NCBI GenBank assembly: GCA_022774755.1
Contig: JALFLK010000011.1
Coordinates: forward strand, 1 to 64,000
Length of the DNA stretch: 64,000 nt
Origin: a bacterium
Lineage (GTDB): Bacteria > Bacillota > Clostridia > Oscillospirales > Acutalibacteraceae
Direction of reading: 5' to 3'
Under the pieces are notes generated by a model. It was not told the origin of the DNA. It was given only the letters and a program-made list of their open reading frames with translations, and did not search any database. Below are positions 2,403-6,465 of this stretch, in pieces; within the stretch, counting starts at the first letter, position 1; each line of letters begins with the position of its first letter. Made by a program: the position numbers and the translations under genes.

Positions 2403-2413
2403 ATATCGGGCAG

Positions 2414-2437
2414 ATGTACCGAGCCACGAGTCCTTGA
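2414..2437 (+). other. Possible very short ORF at the head of the leader
   Basis: ATG 2414 opens a seven-codon frame (MYRATSP) that ends in TGA inside the GAGC arm of the first GAAA hairpin. Only a weak GGGCAG precedes it. It is listed because its stop lies within a hairpin, as expected of a leader peptide, but translation is doubtful. Confidence 0.2.
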
Positions 2438-2546
2438 GCGAAAGCTCCTGAGTCATCAAATTGCCGGACACTGAGAATTACGGGATAGAAATATCCTAAT
2501 GTTCTTGGTGTCCGGCTTTTTTGTCGCTCCCGAAAGGAGCAAGACC

Positions 2547-2588
2547 GTGACATATAAGTGGCTGGCATATATCGCCAAGTATCCGTAA
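2547..2588 (+). CDS. Putative 13-residue leader peptide
   Basis: GTG 2547 opens a 13-codon frame (MTYKWLAYIAKYP) ending in TAA at 2586-2588. A GGAGC ribosome binding site lies at 2536-2540 with six bases of spacing, and that site is itself the 3' arm of the hairpin 2526-2540. The stop codon falls inside the 5' arm (from 2585) of the stem that hides the ribosome binding site of the downstream sigma-like gene. A ribosome reaching the stop would therefore open that stem. The peptide is rich in aromatic residues (Y, W, Y, Y). A role as a sensing or coupling leader is inferred from this geometry alone. Confidence 0.5.
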   Translation: MTYKWLAYIAKYP

Positions 2589-2646
2589 TCTCCGAATTTT
2601 TGATTTCAACCAAATTCAAAAATTCAAATTCAAGGAGATTACGACA

Positions 2647-3231
2647 ATGACAAAACTTACATTAGAACAACAGGAATTATTATTTGCGAATGACTGCAAG
2701 CTCATCAATCTTCGGTATGAATACCACGGTTACACAGGCACGGAGAAATGGGCGATTGTAACAGAACTGGCGGAAGAAGAATTGTGGGTTAAATACCCTG
2801 ATGTTATCCGTCGGTACACACCGTTCATTCTGCTTTCTATGGCTCAGGGTGAAGTGATTGACGAGTCATACAGGAACAACGATAAGTACGAAAAGCGAGC
2901 AAAAAGAACAATCGATGTGTATGGGTATGAAGATGACATCTCTGAACAATTCCACCGGGAACTGATTACTCCGTTTGTTGACCCGTTTGAGCAAGCGGAG
3001 GAAGAACGGATTGAGGAAGAAAAGGAACAGCTCCGCCAGTTAGAAATTGCGAAAGTCAGAAAGGTATTGGAAATGCTGAAACCTGTTCAGAGAGAAAGAC
3101 TGATTAAAGCGATTTTATTAGGTATGAGTTCAAGAAAAATCGCAAAGGAAGAAGGCGTATATTACAGCGTTGTAGATAAGTCGATTGCTGCCGCAAGAAA
3201 AAATTTTAAGAAATTTTATGAAAACCTCTGA
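2647..3231 (+). CDS. Sigma-70 region 4-like DNA-binding protein of the mobile element
   Basis: A 194-residue protein. Its C-terminal third (about residues 135-190) is a helix-turn-helix like sigma-70 region 4: KVLEMLKPVQRERLIKAIL, then MSSRKIAKEEGVYYSVVDKSIAAARKNFKKF. The N-terminal part is charged and shows no clear region 2, so it may be an accessory regulator and not a true sigma factor. Such proteins are frequent in Tn916/Tn1549-like elements upstream of the excision module. GGAG at 2634-2637 is the ribosome binding site, with a nine-base gap to ATG 2647, and it is buried in the leader stem. This makes the gene the likely regulated output of the leader. Confidence 0.75.
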   Translation: MTKLTLEQQELLFANDCKLINLRYEYHGYTGTEKWAIVTELAEEELWVKYPDVIRRYTPFILLSMAQGEVIDESYRNNDKYEKRAKRTIDVYGYEDDISEQFHRELITPFVDPFEQAEEERIEEEKEQLRQLEIAKVRKVLEMLKPVQRERLIKAILLGMSSRKIAKEEGVYYSVVDKSIAAARKNFKKFYENL

Positions 3232-3340
3232 TTTTGGGTGTGCATTTTGACCCCCTTTGTCCAAATGAGTGAAGGGGTTATTTCAATTCCGGATACGAAA
3301 TGCACTTTCAAAACTAAATGAACAGAGAGGTTATACATAT

Positions 3341-3901
3341 ATGCAGAGAAAAGAAATTCGGCGTGGAGATTTATTCTACTACGATTTTGGAAAAAGAGAG
3401 GGGTCTGTCCAGTCGGGTGAGAGACCTGTAATGGTAATTCAGGCGGACAACTTTAATGCAAATGCTCCGACAATTATTGTTGCGGCTGTTACGGCTGTGA
3501 TGAAAAAGAAGTATCTTCCTTCACACATCATTTTGGGTGAGGACTTCGGTCTGAAGAAGCCGTCAATGGTTCTTCTTGAACAGATACAGACCGTCAATAA
3601 GGATGAACTGACAGACTACATTGGTTCGGTAAACGACGAAAGGCTTTGGAAGCAAATTAACGCAGCTCTTAAAAAGACTTTCGGTTTATGGATTTACAAC
3701 ACAGACAGAAACGGAGATGTTCGCTGCTTATGTCCCAAGTGCCTGAGCGACTATATCCACGACCCGAATTATGTTGTCAGGCGTCTTGACCCTTTTGCGA
3801 AAAGCAAAGACCACTGCGATAAGTGCAATAACAGCGGTTGGGATTATATCGTTTATGACAAACGCACCTCGATCAAAGGAAAGGGGTGCAGGAATGTCTA
3901 A
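3341..3901 (+). CDS. PemK/MazF-like toxin with C-terminal zinc ribbon
   Basis: A 186-residue protein. ATG 3341 is chosen because an AGAGAGG site precedes it, although the frame is open from 3269. Residues 5-115 follow the MazF/PemK fold: IRRGDLFYYDFG, then SVQSGERPVMVIQADNFN, then a PSMVLLEQIQTVNKDEL strand-helix pattern. MazF-type enzymes are ribosome-independent mRNA endonucleases. Residues 129-174 form an unusual tail with CPKC (131-134) and CDKC (159-162), which looks like a zinc ribbon. No antitoxin gene is adjacent, so function as a conventional toxin is uncertain. It overlaps the first excisionase-like gene by eight bases. Confidence 0.75.
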   Translation: MQRKEIRRGDLFYYDFGKREGSVQSGERPVMVIQADNFNANAPTIIVAAVTAVMKKKYLPSHIILGEDFGLKKPSMVLLEQIQTVNKDELTDYIGSVNDERLWKQINAALKKTFGLWIYNTDRNGDVRCLCPKCLSDYIHDPNYVVRRLDPFAKSKDHCDKCNNSGWDYIVYDKRTSIKGKGCRNV

Positions 3902-4115
3902 ACAAATCAGGAACAAGTTCAAATATGATATTCCGATTTATCACAGACCTATTATTTCCGTTGACGAAGCGACAGCTTATTCAGGAATAGGAAGAACTAA
4001 ATTGTATGAGTTGACCACAATGGAAAATTGCCCTTTTGTAATTTGGGTAGGGACACGAAGGGTGATTAAAAGAAAATCATTTGTTGAGTATCTTGAAAGG
4101 CAATACTCAATTTAG
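3894..4115 (+). CDS. Excisionase-like winged-helix protein, copy 1 of 5
   Basis: A 73-residue protein. ATG 3894 is preceded by AGGAAAGGGG and overlaps the toxin-like stop. The core IPIYHRPIISVDEATAYSGI and IGRTKLYELT resembles Tn916 Xis (IPIWER, EEASKYF, IGENKLRRL), followed by a basic wing (GTRRVIKRKSF) and the ending YLERQYSI. Xis proteins bend DNA at the element ends and direct integrase toward excision. Four further homologues follow in tandem on the same strand ahead of the integrase. Its membership in the family is clear from shared residues, but whether this copy acts in excision or as a transcriptional regulator cannot be read from the sequence. Confidence 0.75.
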   Translation: MSKQIRNKFKYDIPIYHRPIISVDEATAYSGIGRTKLYELTTMENCPFVIWVGTRRVIKRKSFVEYLERQYSI

Positions 4116-4212
4116 CCTAAATGTCAAGTATGCGATGAGTCAATTCGCATCATTGGCTCATCGCAATTTTTCCAGTATCCTTTATGGCAGAAACGGCAAG
4201 GAGGTCATAGAG

Positions 4213-4446
4213 ATGTCGGAAAAAAGAGCAACAAGAGTCAGGAATAAATATAAGTATGATGTTCCTTTATGGCACAGACCCATACTGTCTGTGGCAGAGG
4301 CTACCGAGTATTTTGGAATAGGCAGCAACAAGATATATGAATTGACAGAAAAAGAAAACTGCCCATTTGTTATTTGGATAGGTTCAAGGAGAGTTATTAA
4401 GAGAACTGCGTTTGAACGATTTCTTGAAAAGCAGTATTCGATTTAG
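4213..4446 (+). CDS. Excisionase-like protein, copy 2 of 5
   Basis: A 77-residue protein with ATG 4213 behind AAGGAGG (4198-4204). It is the closest relative of copy 1: both begin with an R-N-K-x-KYD stretch, carry the block HRPI-S-EAT (a V or A after S) and a CPFVIW-G-RRVIKR wing, and end in LE-QYSI. The 97-base gap between copies 1 and 2 has no further frame with a good ribosome binding site. The similarity points to local gene duplication within the element. Function is presumed to be recombination directionality or regulation. Confidence 0.75.
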   Translation: MSEKRATRVRNKYKYDVPLWHRPILSVAEATEYFGIGSNKIYELTEKENCPFVIWIGSRRVIKRTAFERFLEKQYSI

Positions 4447-4467
4447 GTAGGAATGGAGGAAATAGAA

Positions 4468-4680
4468 ATGGCAGAGAATAAAAAGCAGTTTGAAATTCCG
4501 TTGTATGAAAAGCCTTTTCTTTCGATAGAAGAAGCGTCTGTATATACGGGAATCGGCAGAGACAAGTTATACGAACTTACAAATCCGGAAGATTGTCCTT
4601 TCGTTTTATGGATTGGCAATCGCCGAATGATTAAGAGAAGGGTTTTTGATGAGTACATTGAAAAATGCTACTCAATATGA
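4468..4680 (+). CDS. Excisionase-like protein, copy 3 of 5
   Basis: A 70-residue protein. ATG 4468 is preferred over ATG 4453, because the ribosome binding site GGAGGA at 4455-4460 lies between them. The family pattern is complete: EIPLYEKPFLSIEEASVYTGI, GRDKLYELT, CPFVLWIGNRRMIKRRVF, and the shared end YSI. It is the shortest of the five. It is separated by about 20 bases from copy 2 and 15 from copy 4, consistent with a single transcript. Confidence 0.75.
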   Translation: MAENKKQFEIPLYEKPFLSIEEASVYTGIGRDKLYELTNPEDCPFVLWIGNRRMIKRRVFDEYIEKCYSI

Positions 4681-4695
4681 TGGGAGGTGTTAGTA

Positions 4696-4929
4696 ATGGA
4701 CAATAAAGAAACGGCAGAGCATTTTAGAAGCAGGAGTTCAGAAGTACCTTTATGGCACAGACAGAATATCTCAGTAGAAGAAGCCAGTGGGTACACAGGA
4801 CTTGGAAGAGACACGATATATTCTCTCACGCAGGAAGATGACTGTGACTTTGTATTAAAAGTCGGACACAGAACGATGATAAAGCGAAAAAAGTTCGAGA
4901 ATTATTTGGAAAACCTTTCGTCGATATAG
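4696..4929 (+). CDS. Excisionase-like protein, copy 4 of 5
   Basis: A 77-residue protein starting at ATG 4696 behind GGGAGG (4682-4687). It keeps PLWHRQNISVEEASGYTGLGRDTIYSLT and the basic wing HRTMIKRKKFENYLE. It replaces the CPFVIW block of copies 1 to 3 with CDFVLK and ends in SSI, not YSI. It is therefore more diverged than copies 1 to 3 while remaining full length, which argues for retained function and not decay. Confidence 0.75.
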   Translation: MDNKETAEHFRSRSSEVPLWHRQNISVEEASGYTGLGRDTIYSLTQEDDCDFVLKVGHRTMIKRKKFENYLENLSSI

Positions 4930-4941
4930 GAGGTGCTTTAG

Positions 4942-5193
4942 GTGTTAAGAGTTATTAGTGAAGAAATCACTGCTTACAGAAGGCAGATTGATGAAAGAAA
5001 AAATGATTTACCACTATGGGAACGAAAAGTCCTTACTTGTGATGAAGCAGCCGCATATTCCGGAATTGGTATTAGAAGGCTGAGAAAAATGGCATTGGCA
5101 AAAGGGTGTCCGTTTGCTATTGCAAATGGTACACAGATTTTGATAGCAAGAGAAAAGTTTGACGCTTATATGGATAAAGCGGAAAAGGTTTAG
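4942..5193 (+). CDS. Excisionase-like protein, copy 5 of 5 (most Tn916 Xis-like)
   Basis: An 83-residue protein from GTG 4942 with AGGAGG at 4928-4933. Its core NDLPLWERKVLTCDEAAAYSGIG then RRLRKMALAKG is the closest of the five to Tn916 Xis, which has the WER motif and an LRRLAEE helix. The C-terminal wing is TQILIAREKFDAYMDKAEKV. It lies 12 bases before the integrase gene, the usual xis-int order. It is the best candidate for the true excisionase, and copies 1 to 4 may be paralogues with other tasks. Confidence 0.8.
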   Translation: MLRVISEEITAYRRQIDERKNDLPLWERKVLTCDEAAAYSGIGIRRLRKMALAKGCPFAIANGTQILIAREKFDAYMDKAEKV

Positions 5194-5205: not shown

Positions 5206-6465
5206 ATGGCAAAGACAAAAAGACGAGATAAATCAAGAGTGGTTCTCCGCACAGGAGAATCACAACGTGCAGACGGTACATATCATTATAGTTGGACGGA
5301 TGCAAATCGCAAAAGGCGTTATGTATATGCCAAGACACTCGATGAGCTTCGCTACAAAGAGGAGCAGATTGAAAAAGATAAAAAAGACGGCATAAAGGCA
5401 GAAGCTCGATATACTACCCTCAATGATATGTATGAGCTTTGGAAAGACTTGAAACGAGGTCTTAAAAACAATACCTTTGAAAACTATAAGTATATGTATG
5501 AGACATTCGTTCGTAATCAAATTGGCTCAAAGACGGTATCTTCTTTGAAAAAGACAGATATTAAAAGGTTCTATAATTACCTTGCAGATGAAAGACATCT
5601 AAAACCGGCGACTATTGACAATATCCATACGGTTCTTCATCAGATTTTGGATATGGCAGTTGATGATGATTATCTCAGAAATAACCCTTCCAATAATGTG
5701 CTGAAAGAGTTAAAGCAGTCCCATTGTTTTCAAACGGAGAAACGCAGAGCCTTAACGAGACCGGAACAGGAATTATTTTTGAGCTATCTGAAGAATACAC
5801 CGTCTGCAAGTTTGTGGTATCCAATTTTTGCGGTGTTGGTTGGAACGGGACTTCGTGTTGGTGAAGCAACGGGTCTCAGATGGTGCGACATTGATTTGGA
5901 CGAAGGAATTATCAATGTTAATCATACGCTGGTATATTATGACCATAGAACCGACGGTAGTAAGCGTGGCTGCTATTTTAATATCAATACCACGAAAACG
6001 CCGGCTGGCAAACGCCAAGTCCCGATGTTGGATTTCGTCAAAGAAGCATTCCTTATGGAAAAAGAAAGACAGGAGCTTCTTGATATTCATTGTGAAGCTG
6101 TTGTAGACGGATATACTGATTTTATCTTTCTTAACCGTTTTGGACAACCGCAACATCAGGCAACCCTTAACAAAGCAATCCGTCGTATTATCCGTGACTG
6201 CAATGATGAACAGTTTCTGAAAGATGAAAATGCAAAGGTTTTGCTTCCGCATTTTAGCTGCCACTCATTAAGGCATACATTCACGACAAGAATGTGTGAA
6301 GCAGGGGTTAATGTAAAGGTTATCCAGGATACGCTTGGACACAAAGATATTTCTACAACCCTTAATATTTATACCGATGTGACGAAGGAGTTAAGGAGGT
6401 CTGAATTTGAAGGTCTTGACTCGTACTTCAAAAATGAGTATAATAAGGCGAATGAAGTATTATAA
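5206..6465 (+). CDS. int: Tyrosine integrase of the mobile element (Tn916 Int-like)
   Basis: A 419-residue site-specific recombinase that integrates and excises the element. Residues 1-65 form the arm-binding domain (basic start, SWTDANRKRRYVYAKT), residues 70-170 the SAM-like core-binding domain and 180-410 the catalytic domain. Catalytic residues are visible: R217 (TGLRVGE), probable K264, H353 and R356 (HSLRH), H379 (LGHKD) and nucleophile Y389 (NIYTDVT). ATG 5206 follows TAGGAGG. Being the last gene before a repeat-containing non-coding end region, it marks the right-hand end of the element. Confidence 0.93.
   Translation: MAKTKRRDKSRVVLRTGESQRADGTYHYSWTDANRKRRYVYAKTLDELRYKEEQIEKDKKDGIKAEARYTTLNDMYELWKDLKRGLKNNTFENYKYMYETFVRNQIGSKTVSSLKKTDIKRFYNYLADERHLKPATIDNIHTVLHQILDMAVDDDYLRNNPSNNVLKELKQSHCFQTEKRRALTRPEQELFLSYLKNTPSASLWYPIFAVLVGTGLRVGEATGLRWCDIDLDEGIINVNHTLVYYDHRTDGSKRGCYFNINTTKTPAGKRQVPMLDFVKEAFLMEKERQELLDIHCEAVVDGYTDFIFLNRFGQPQHQATLNKAIRRIIRDCNDEQFLKDENAKVLLPHFSCHSLRHTFTTRMCEAGVNVKVIQDTLGHKDISTTLNIYTDVTKELRRSEFEGLDSYFKNEYNKANEVL

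Follow-up and report, generated by a model that had tools for sequence, protein, structure and literature searches.

The question raised by this locus is how a sigma-like gene, which stands ahead of the integrase of a mobile element, is controlled through a leader that holds a terminator-like hairpin, a 13-codon open reading frame (mini-ORF) and a hairpin taking in the gene's own Shine-Dalgarno sequence (SD). The stretch of DNA analysed, here called the window, is 64,000 nt long and its first base is base 1 of its contig (C15). A sequence-only reading had described a two-stage regulatory leader at this place. Every hairpin that it listed, the mini-ORF and the SD are present base for base (Table 1), and its interpretation is partly supported.

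The leader and its mobile neighbourhood

The stretch 2403-2660, which takes in the leader (2403-2646), has a computed folding energy of -98.1 kcal/mol, against a shuffle mean of -56.9 (sd 4.8; z -8.63; 0/200 shuffles as low). The fold includes the terminator stem, whose arms GCCGGACAC (2463-2471) and GTGTCCGGC (2508-2516) enclose GGATAGAAATATCC, and the SD hairpin, formed by the outer arms GTAATCTCC (2585-2593) and GGAGATTAC (2634-2642) and the inner arms GAATTTTTGA (2594-2603) and TCAAAAATTC (2616-2625). It also adds a long-range pairing between the 5' end of the leader and codons of the mini-ORF; the energy of this pairing, computed on the near-identical leader L186, is -34.8 against a letter-shuffle mean of -25.2 (13/500 as low). 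A stretch like the 5' leader is present, by eye, in the near relatives L002, L004 and L005. The mini-ORF ends in the motif W-x7-P-stop (2559-2588), reading WLAYIAKYP before the stop. As had been pointed out, its stop lies inside the 5' arm of the SD hairpin, where a ribosome would open the hairpin. The start codon of the sigma-like gene is the ATG at 2647. No Rfam family, of 4227, reaches its gathering score over the window.

Table 1. Features of the leader and of the genes downstream of it, with positions in the window.
Feature	Position	Strand	Basis
5' leader with GAAA-loop hairpin 2436-2447 (GAGC-GAAA-GCTC), part able to pair with mini-ORF codons	2403..2462	+	fold
Intrinsic-terminator-like hairpin, then six T (2517-2522)	2463..2522	+	read from sequence, fold
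Small hairpin GCTCC-CGAAA-GGAGC; 3' arm is the mini-ORF SD (GGAGC)	2526..2540	+	read from sequence
Mini-ORF VTYKWLAYIAKYP-stop, 13 codons, GTG start 2547-2549, TAA 2586-2588	2547..2588	+	peptide-level conservation
SD-sequestering hairpin; 5' arm includes the mini-ORF stop	2585..2642	+	fold, covariation
SD (GGAG) of the sigma-like gene	2634..2637	+	paired with 2590-2593
Controlled gene, sigma-70 region-4-like protein, 194 aa	2647..3231	+	Pfam Sigma70_r4_2 E 4e-5, below gathering score
PemK/MazF-like gene, next downstream	3341..3901	+	PF02452 E 4e-22
Five consecutive small Xis-like genes, ahead of the integrase	3894..5193	+	PF09035 in two tested (3894-4115, 4453-4680); three by eye
Tn916-type integrase	5206..6465	+	PF02920 and PF00589

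The sigma-like protein also matches TIGR02937 (sigma-70 family) at E 1.4e-4, below the cut-off, and 28 of 31 aligned relatives match it with E no higher than 0.01; six of the 31 match phage antitermination protein Q (PF06530) weakly, at best with E 2.4e-4. The Tn916-type integrase (PF02920) together with excisionase (PF09035) gives the element the character of a Tn916/Tn1549-like element, and the position of the sigma-like gene suggests that its product may have a role in transfer. A corresponding gene order is found on Monoglobus pectinilyticus plasmid 12 (NZ_OY725736.1). The DNA match between the two (97.2%) stops at 2882, a mosaic break inside the sigma-like gene; the window protein (2647-3231) and that of the plasmid (L271 4948-5487) are alike for about 70 residues from the N terminus and differ after that. 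Between the sigma-like and MazF-like genes lies a noncoding stretch (3232-3340) that has, by eye, a similar counterpart in L004 and another after the AKYP-stop ORF of L161.

Related leaders: hairpin, peptide and terminator

Homologues of the sigma-like protein occur in 32 of 296 related genomes. Many of their leaders have, by eye, the same order of terminator-like hairpin, mini-ORF, hairpin and gene, with mini-ORFs that differ in sequence and share the ending W-x-x-x-I-A-K-Y-P-stop. A scan for the motif followed by TAA, one genome per species, returned 113 stretches; it required Trp and TAA, and its counts are therefore uninformative on either. A strict SD-hairpin test was passed by 92 and failed by 20, one more being cut by a contig end; among the failures, L037, L089, L115, L117, L118 and L124 have paired arms by eye. 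With a loose hairpin test, and identical copies dropped, the scan comes to 80 loci. At 73 of these the downstream product falls into a single-linkage cluster with the sigma-like protein of the window, and 73 belong to Clostridia by record title, the agreement of the two counts being chance; the whole cluster takes in 91 of 98 loci, 12 of the 98 coming from earlier searches. At L067 and L094 the gene that follows this mini-ORF and hairpin encodes a product resembling, by eye, a helix-turn-helix repressor and not a sigma-like protein. Near-identical VTYKWLAYIAKYP leaders stand in records whose titles name several genera (L048, L075, L077, L097, L103, L125, L135), which looks like recent horizontal spread. 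Phylum-wide, 3 of 398 genomes match, namely the genome of the window and 2 of the 381 outside the class, so the searched form is rare outside the class in this sample; by eye, L274 of these two has Trp, a strong hairpin, SD and gene, and L275 lacks them. Viral contigs searched with the sigma-like protein alone gave nine pattern matches, none of them confirmed.

The motif-scan loci with at least 3.5 kb of sequence downstream number 45. A window-like integrase is present at 23 of them, a MazF-like gene at 28 and a Xis-like gene at 10; at 12 none of the three is assigned. In a plasmid collection, a relative of a sigma-like protein with an R-x-P-P leader (see below) is found in 36 records, 33 of them Enterococcus. 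The one inspected, Enterococcus plasmid pEGM183 (L270 2988-3147), carries an R-C-R-S-P-P-P leader before a sigma-70-like gene, downstream of bcr (bacitracin) genes.

Compensatory changes in homologous leaders, which the sequence-only reading had proposed to look for, are found. Two-sided changes occur at 11 of 19 hairpin pairs, with 46 cells against 16.7 expected (0/500 shuffles as high), in 40 of 74 leaders that were picked by eye for a window-like hairpin and include L186, from which the structure was specified, so that subset and structure both favour the window type. An exchange of 3' arms between leaders is independent of both choices. In W-x7-P leaders (n=82) the pairing energy is -17.0 kcal/mol with the own arm and -11.0 with a swapped one, a mean cost of 6.0; in R-x-P-P leaders (n=43) it is -19.6 and -11.5, a mean cost of 8.1. 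No permutation of 5000 reached either result, figures that are not exact probabilities because related sequences stand within the sets. The part of the hairpin away from the SD behaves in the same way (n=79 and 43; 0/5000). A count of SD pairing carries no weight, since such pairing is also present in most shuffles (1401/1640 and 813/840); the arm swap took its place. RNAalifold found no consensus fold on an alignment of 79 W-x7-P leaders. Judged by these comparisons, the predicted SD hairpin of the family is real.

The position of the hairpin relative to the peptide is nearly constant. A held ribosome covers about 15 nt from its P-site codon. Counted from the Pro codon, SD pairing starts at +7 or +8 in 69 of 79 W-x7-P leaders, and in the window the pairing stretch 2590-2593 corresponds to +8 to +11. 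In R-x-P-P leaders, with the first Pro taken as the P site, SD pairing begins at +1 to +12 and falls within the two Pro codons in 34 of 42. With such a footprint, the SD-pairing bases of both kinds of leader would sit under the held ribosome; geometry and covariation agree with a predicted exposure of the SD. For RAPP-like motifs, toeprinting places the third motif residue in the P site on stalling (PMC10987492).

A survey of leaders without any motif requirement was based on protein similarity to the sigma-like protein. It drew on the related-genome search and on 88 places from the matches listed in a class-wide profile search (top-ranked, some skipped; profile built from 31 proteins), and 117 leaders were reduced to 96 by removal of near-copies. 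Counting the places among the matches listed, a W-x7-P-stop mini-ORF is present in 26 of the 96, R-x-P-P, usually as CRSPP, stands at a comparable distance in 50, and 20 have neither; the W-x7-P share may be too high because the profile was built from proteins with a W-x7-P leader, while no comparable reason is seen for an inflated R-x-P-P share. Upstream control stretches of the same 96 leaders contain neither motif (-230 to -135), or R-x-P-P in three and W-x7-P-stop in none (-345 to -250). The distance to the gene is 45-62 nt from the end of the stop codon and 42-62 nt from the end of the R-x-P-P motif. By eye, some leaders counted as motif-less have related endings: L239 ends in MKLVRGP-stop and L255 in IKPPIRYP-stop, L019 has KSPP, and L199 has RSPP and was counted here owing to a mis-called start. 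L025 and L029 are, by eye, not true leaders.

Trp stands at -8 in 26 of the 27 YP-stop mini-ORFs of the survey, a count in which Trp was no criterion; position -3 is mostly A, also G, D or I, and position -2 is K, R, E, A or G. When the 296 genomes were searched without the Trp criterion, 28 matches were obtained, two of which are not stops, and Trp at -8 was present in 19 of 20 with the hairpin and in 0 of 6 without it (Fisher p 3e-5). In L161 an AKYP-stop ORF has a good start, but Trp and hairpin are both missing. For codon positions 1, 2 and 3 of I-A-K-Y-P the mean entropy is 0.21, 0.24 and 1.34 bits, respectively (81 leaders), the low values at the first two positions arising partly because the motif scan required those residues. 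Among 83 nonredundant W-x7-P leaders, many of them from the scan, which fixed residues and left third codon positions free, Ala is encoded by GCT (36), GCC (19), GCG (13) and GCA (11), Tyr(-1) by TAT (45) and TAC (38), and Pro by CCG (48), CCA (25), CCT (6) and CCC (4). Two of the 83, L092 and L099, pass the loose hairpin test only and were dropped for the entropy. In 43 R-x-P-P leaders Arg is encoded by AGA/AGG in 18 and by CGN in 25, and Ser, where present, by AGY in 18 and by TCN in 18, an exchange that takes two steps. Such amino-acid-level conservation of a C terminus is a general mark of arrest-peptide leaders, and selection acts on the predicted mini-ORF peptide. A start codon with SD is recognised by rule in 59/83 W-x7-P and 15/43 R-x-P-P mini-ORFs, so some may use unusual starts. 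Where a start was identified and enough upstream sequence was at hand, 46 of 55 W-x7-P leaders have the mini-ORF SD base-paired to sequence upstream of it, a count without shuffle control.

The two leader kinds are exchanged among homologous genes. A quickly built tree of 92 proteins, in which many forks are open, requires at least 18 changes among three leader states; the shuffled mean is 36.3, hence the states are also clustered. Starred branches pair, for example, L208 (W-x7-P) with L016 (RGPP) and L205 (W-x7-P) with L210 (RAPP). On this tree, then, the predicted W-x7-P and R-x-P-P leaders replace each other, and the simplest reason for such an exchange is equal function. Since the known function of R-x-P-P is ribosome arrest, the same function would on this simplest reason belong to W-x7-P.

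The terminator-like stem described for the window proves to be general as well. Upstream of the mini-ORF end, 72 of 74 W-x7-P leaders have a terminator-like hairpin, whereas control stretches taken from within the main ORF have one in 11 of 71 cases. For R-x-P-P leaders the figures are 32 of 42, with 13 of 42 in the controls; the predicted upstream terminator is thus a general feature of the leaders of the family. The window has the hairpin and T run before a gene that are expected of a transcription attenuator. In the W-x7-P set, the 5' arm of the terminator pairs with sequence after the T run better than with swapped partners (0/2000 permutations). The R-x-P-P set is without such a signal (1448/2000 permutations as low), and in the window-type leader L186 the alternative pairing is not significant (95/500), which leaves a classical terminator/antiterminator unsupported for the window. 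The alternative partner is, moreover, too late for a classical antiterminator because it follows the T run. Leaders whose terminator 5' arm can pair in this way include L133, L067, L221, L008, L046, L203, L058 and L191.

Known leader systems

In erm-type attenuators, a ribosome held on the leader peptide frees the start of the next gene, and the switch proposed below shares with them the leader peptide, the held ribosome and the freed start. Their target is a resistance gene, whereas here a sigma-like gene is controlled and the motif lies at the stop codon. The likeness to erm and tet(M) leaders that the sequence-only reading had drawn therefore holds for the leader-peptide logic but is less apt as a whole, because the controlled gene is no resistance gene.

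TnaC, the leader peptide of tnaCAB in E. coli, is likewise short, with an essential Trp and a terminal Pro; during its arrest Pro24 occupies the P site, and the A site contains the stop codon (PMC8429421). The TnaC signature (Trp12, Asp16, Ile19 and Pro24 at fixed spacing) is not present in the window: Trp and Pro are 12 apart in TnaC and 8 apart in W-x7-P mini-ORFs, where I stands at -4 and K at -2, and the conserved motif has no Asp at the corresponding place. TnaC also works via Rho and transcription and controls tna genes, whereas here the apparent target is a hidden SD and the controlled gene is not tna. The NSP-stop and NAP-stop peptides of Bacteroidota share with the family a C-terminal Pro and arrest with the stop codon in the A site (PMC10987492); they stand upstream of secA and secDF, and W-x7-P is not among the motifs described in the available text of that source.

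R-x-P-P belongs with the RAPP, RGPP and RSPP peptides (ApdA, ApdP and the RQH family). The RQH motif is given as (R/Q/H)-(A/G/D)-(P/G/S)-(P/G), and RSPP was among the motif queries (PMC10987492). The window mini-ORF contains neither an RQH-type motif nor R-x-P-P. Among sequences from E. coli and B. subtilis that carry RAPP-like motifs, most of those tested failed to give efficient arrest (PMC10987492), and RSPP and RDPP are described as partly permissive (PMC12992588). Arrest peptides before sigma genes already have a precedent in Streptomyces (PMC12992588), where two peptides with RAPP-like motifs are reported upstream of ECF sigma genes in Streptomyces lividans; those peptides have four predicted transmembrane domains, whereas the family peptides are very short. 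According to the available text of the same source, RGPP/RAPP uORFs of the listed gene groups are missing in many Gram-positives, including Bacillota (PMC12992588), and the words "conjugative" and "transposon" are not found in its main text. Terminators control genes of Tn916 too, together with the element-encoded RNA antiterminator canT (PMC11658703), a likeness to the present family; canT is processive and overlaps orf5 (PMC11658703), and the word "leader" is not found in the main text of that source. The strings IAKYP and CRSPP led, in the open-access literature judged by titles (subscription papers and preprints lying outside the scope), to no paper on the subject. Within that scope W-x7-P-stop is apparently an unreported, candidate termination-arrest motif.

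A proposed translational switch

We put at about 0.72 the probability that an arrest peptide operates this leader as a translational switch. Several parts of it we infer: that the mini-ORF is translated, that the ribosome arrests in answer to some signal, that arrest turns the gene on, that the terminator takes part and that the element is affected. RNA polymerase would first read through the terminator (2463-2522), giving a longer RNA in which the hairpin would bury the SD of the sigma-like gene. A ribosome translating the 13 codons of the mini-ORF would then be held at the stop codon by the conserved end of the peptide; it would cover the anti-SD bases 2589-2593, free the SD and allow the sigma-like regulator to be made. 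With quick release, the hairpin would re-form and the gene would stay off. Comparison of the leaders supplies the anatomy of this predicted switch, the conservation of its peptide, the covariation, the near-constant geometry, the recurrence with homologous genes and the replacement by R-x-P-P. Several observations tell against an arrest switch: the 20 survey leaders with neither motif, the mini-ORFs in which no start with SD is recognised, the three R-x-P-P occurrences further upstream, the inefficient arrest of most tested RAPP-like sequences, the AKYP-stop ORF of L161, and the overlap of the R-x-P-P codons with anti-SD sequence (CCTCC), by which Pro codons could be favoured at that place.

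The sequence-only reading held that a translating ribosome would open the hairpin. The geometry agrees, but passage alone misses the conserved peptide end and the known arrest motif R-x-P-P in relatives; the C-terminal motif points beyond passage to nascent-chain arrest at termination. If the peptide were irrelevant, any ribosome ending in the 5' arm would open the hairpin briefly, and geometry alone would suffice for such plain coupling. We consider this unlikely, as Trp(-8) and A-K-Y-P are conserved as amino acids, mostly outside the hairpin bases, and R-x-P-P lies at a similar distance in relatives. That the mini-ORF instead encodes a free signalling peptide, with the hairpin a separate device, is hardly credible: the motif goes together with the stop codon and the position of the anti-SD, and the sequence before Trp is variable and without an export signal by eye, even though the mini-ORF is short, conserved and carried on a mobile element.

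A protein- or ligand-binding RNA element, with an incidental mini-ORF, would account for the strong fold, the long-range pairing between the 5' leader and mini-ORF codons and the alternative terminator-arm pairings of some relatives; it is nonetheless improbable, given that variation in I-A-K-Y-P falls on third codon positions and that no Rfam family matches. Transcription attenuation as the real switch, merely completed by the mini-ORF, has on its side the near-universal terminator-like hairpin of the W-x7-P leaders and their alternative pairing. Against it stand the lateness of the partner, the missing signal in the R-x-P-P set and the window-type leader, and a peptide conservation that it leaves unexplained, so that we regard it as very improbable. 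The arrest-peptide switch remains our preferred reading. A wider form of it we hold to be about an even bet: that W-x3-(I)-A-K-Y-P-stop represents an unreported class of termination arrest, interchangeable with C-R-S-P-P, which would act as a sensor turning on the sigma-like regulator of clostridial mobile elements, so that element activity would follow the translation state of the host (release, the synthesis of proline-proline, or a small molecule inside the exit tunnel).

Genes for resistance, protein export and metabolism, and some sigma-factor genes, are known to be governed by leader-peptide arrest. In the present family, sigma-like regulators with mobile-gene neighbours (at least one of the three kinds at 33 of the 45 checkable loci) are seemingly under two exchangeable kinds of arrest peptide. 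W-x7-P-stop offers a candidate new arrest motif for ribosome work, and the family makes it testable which cue mobile elements listen to. The leader arrangement, recurring before many related genes, looks like a real and apparently undescribed control device. If the proposed switch is true, the leader would be a recurrent control point over mobile genes in gut bacteria.
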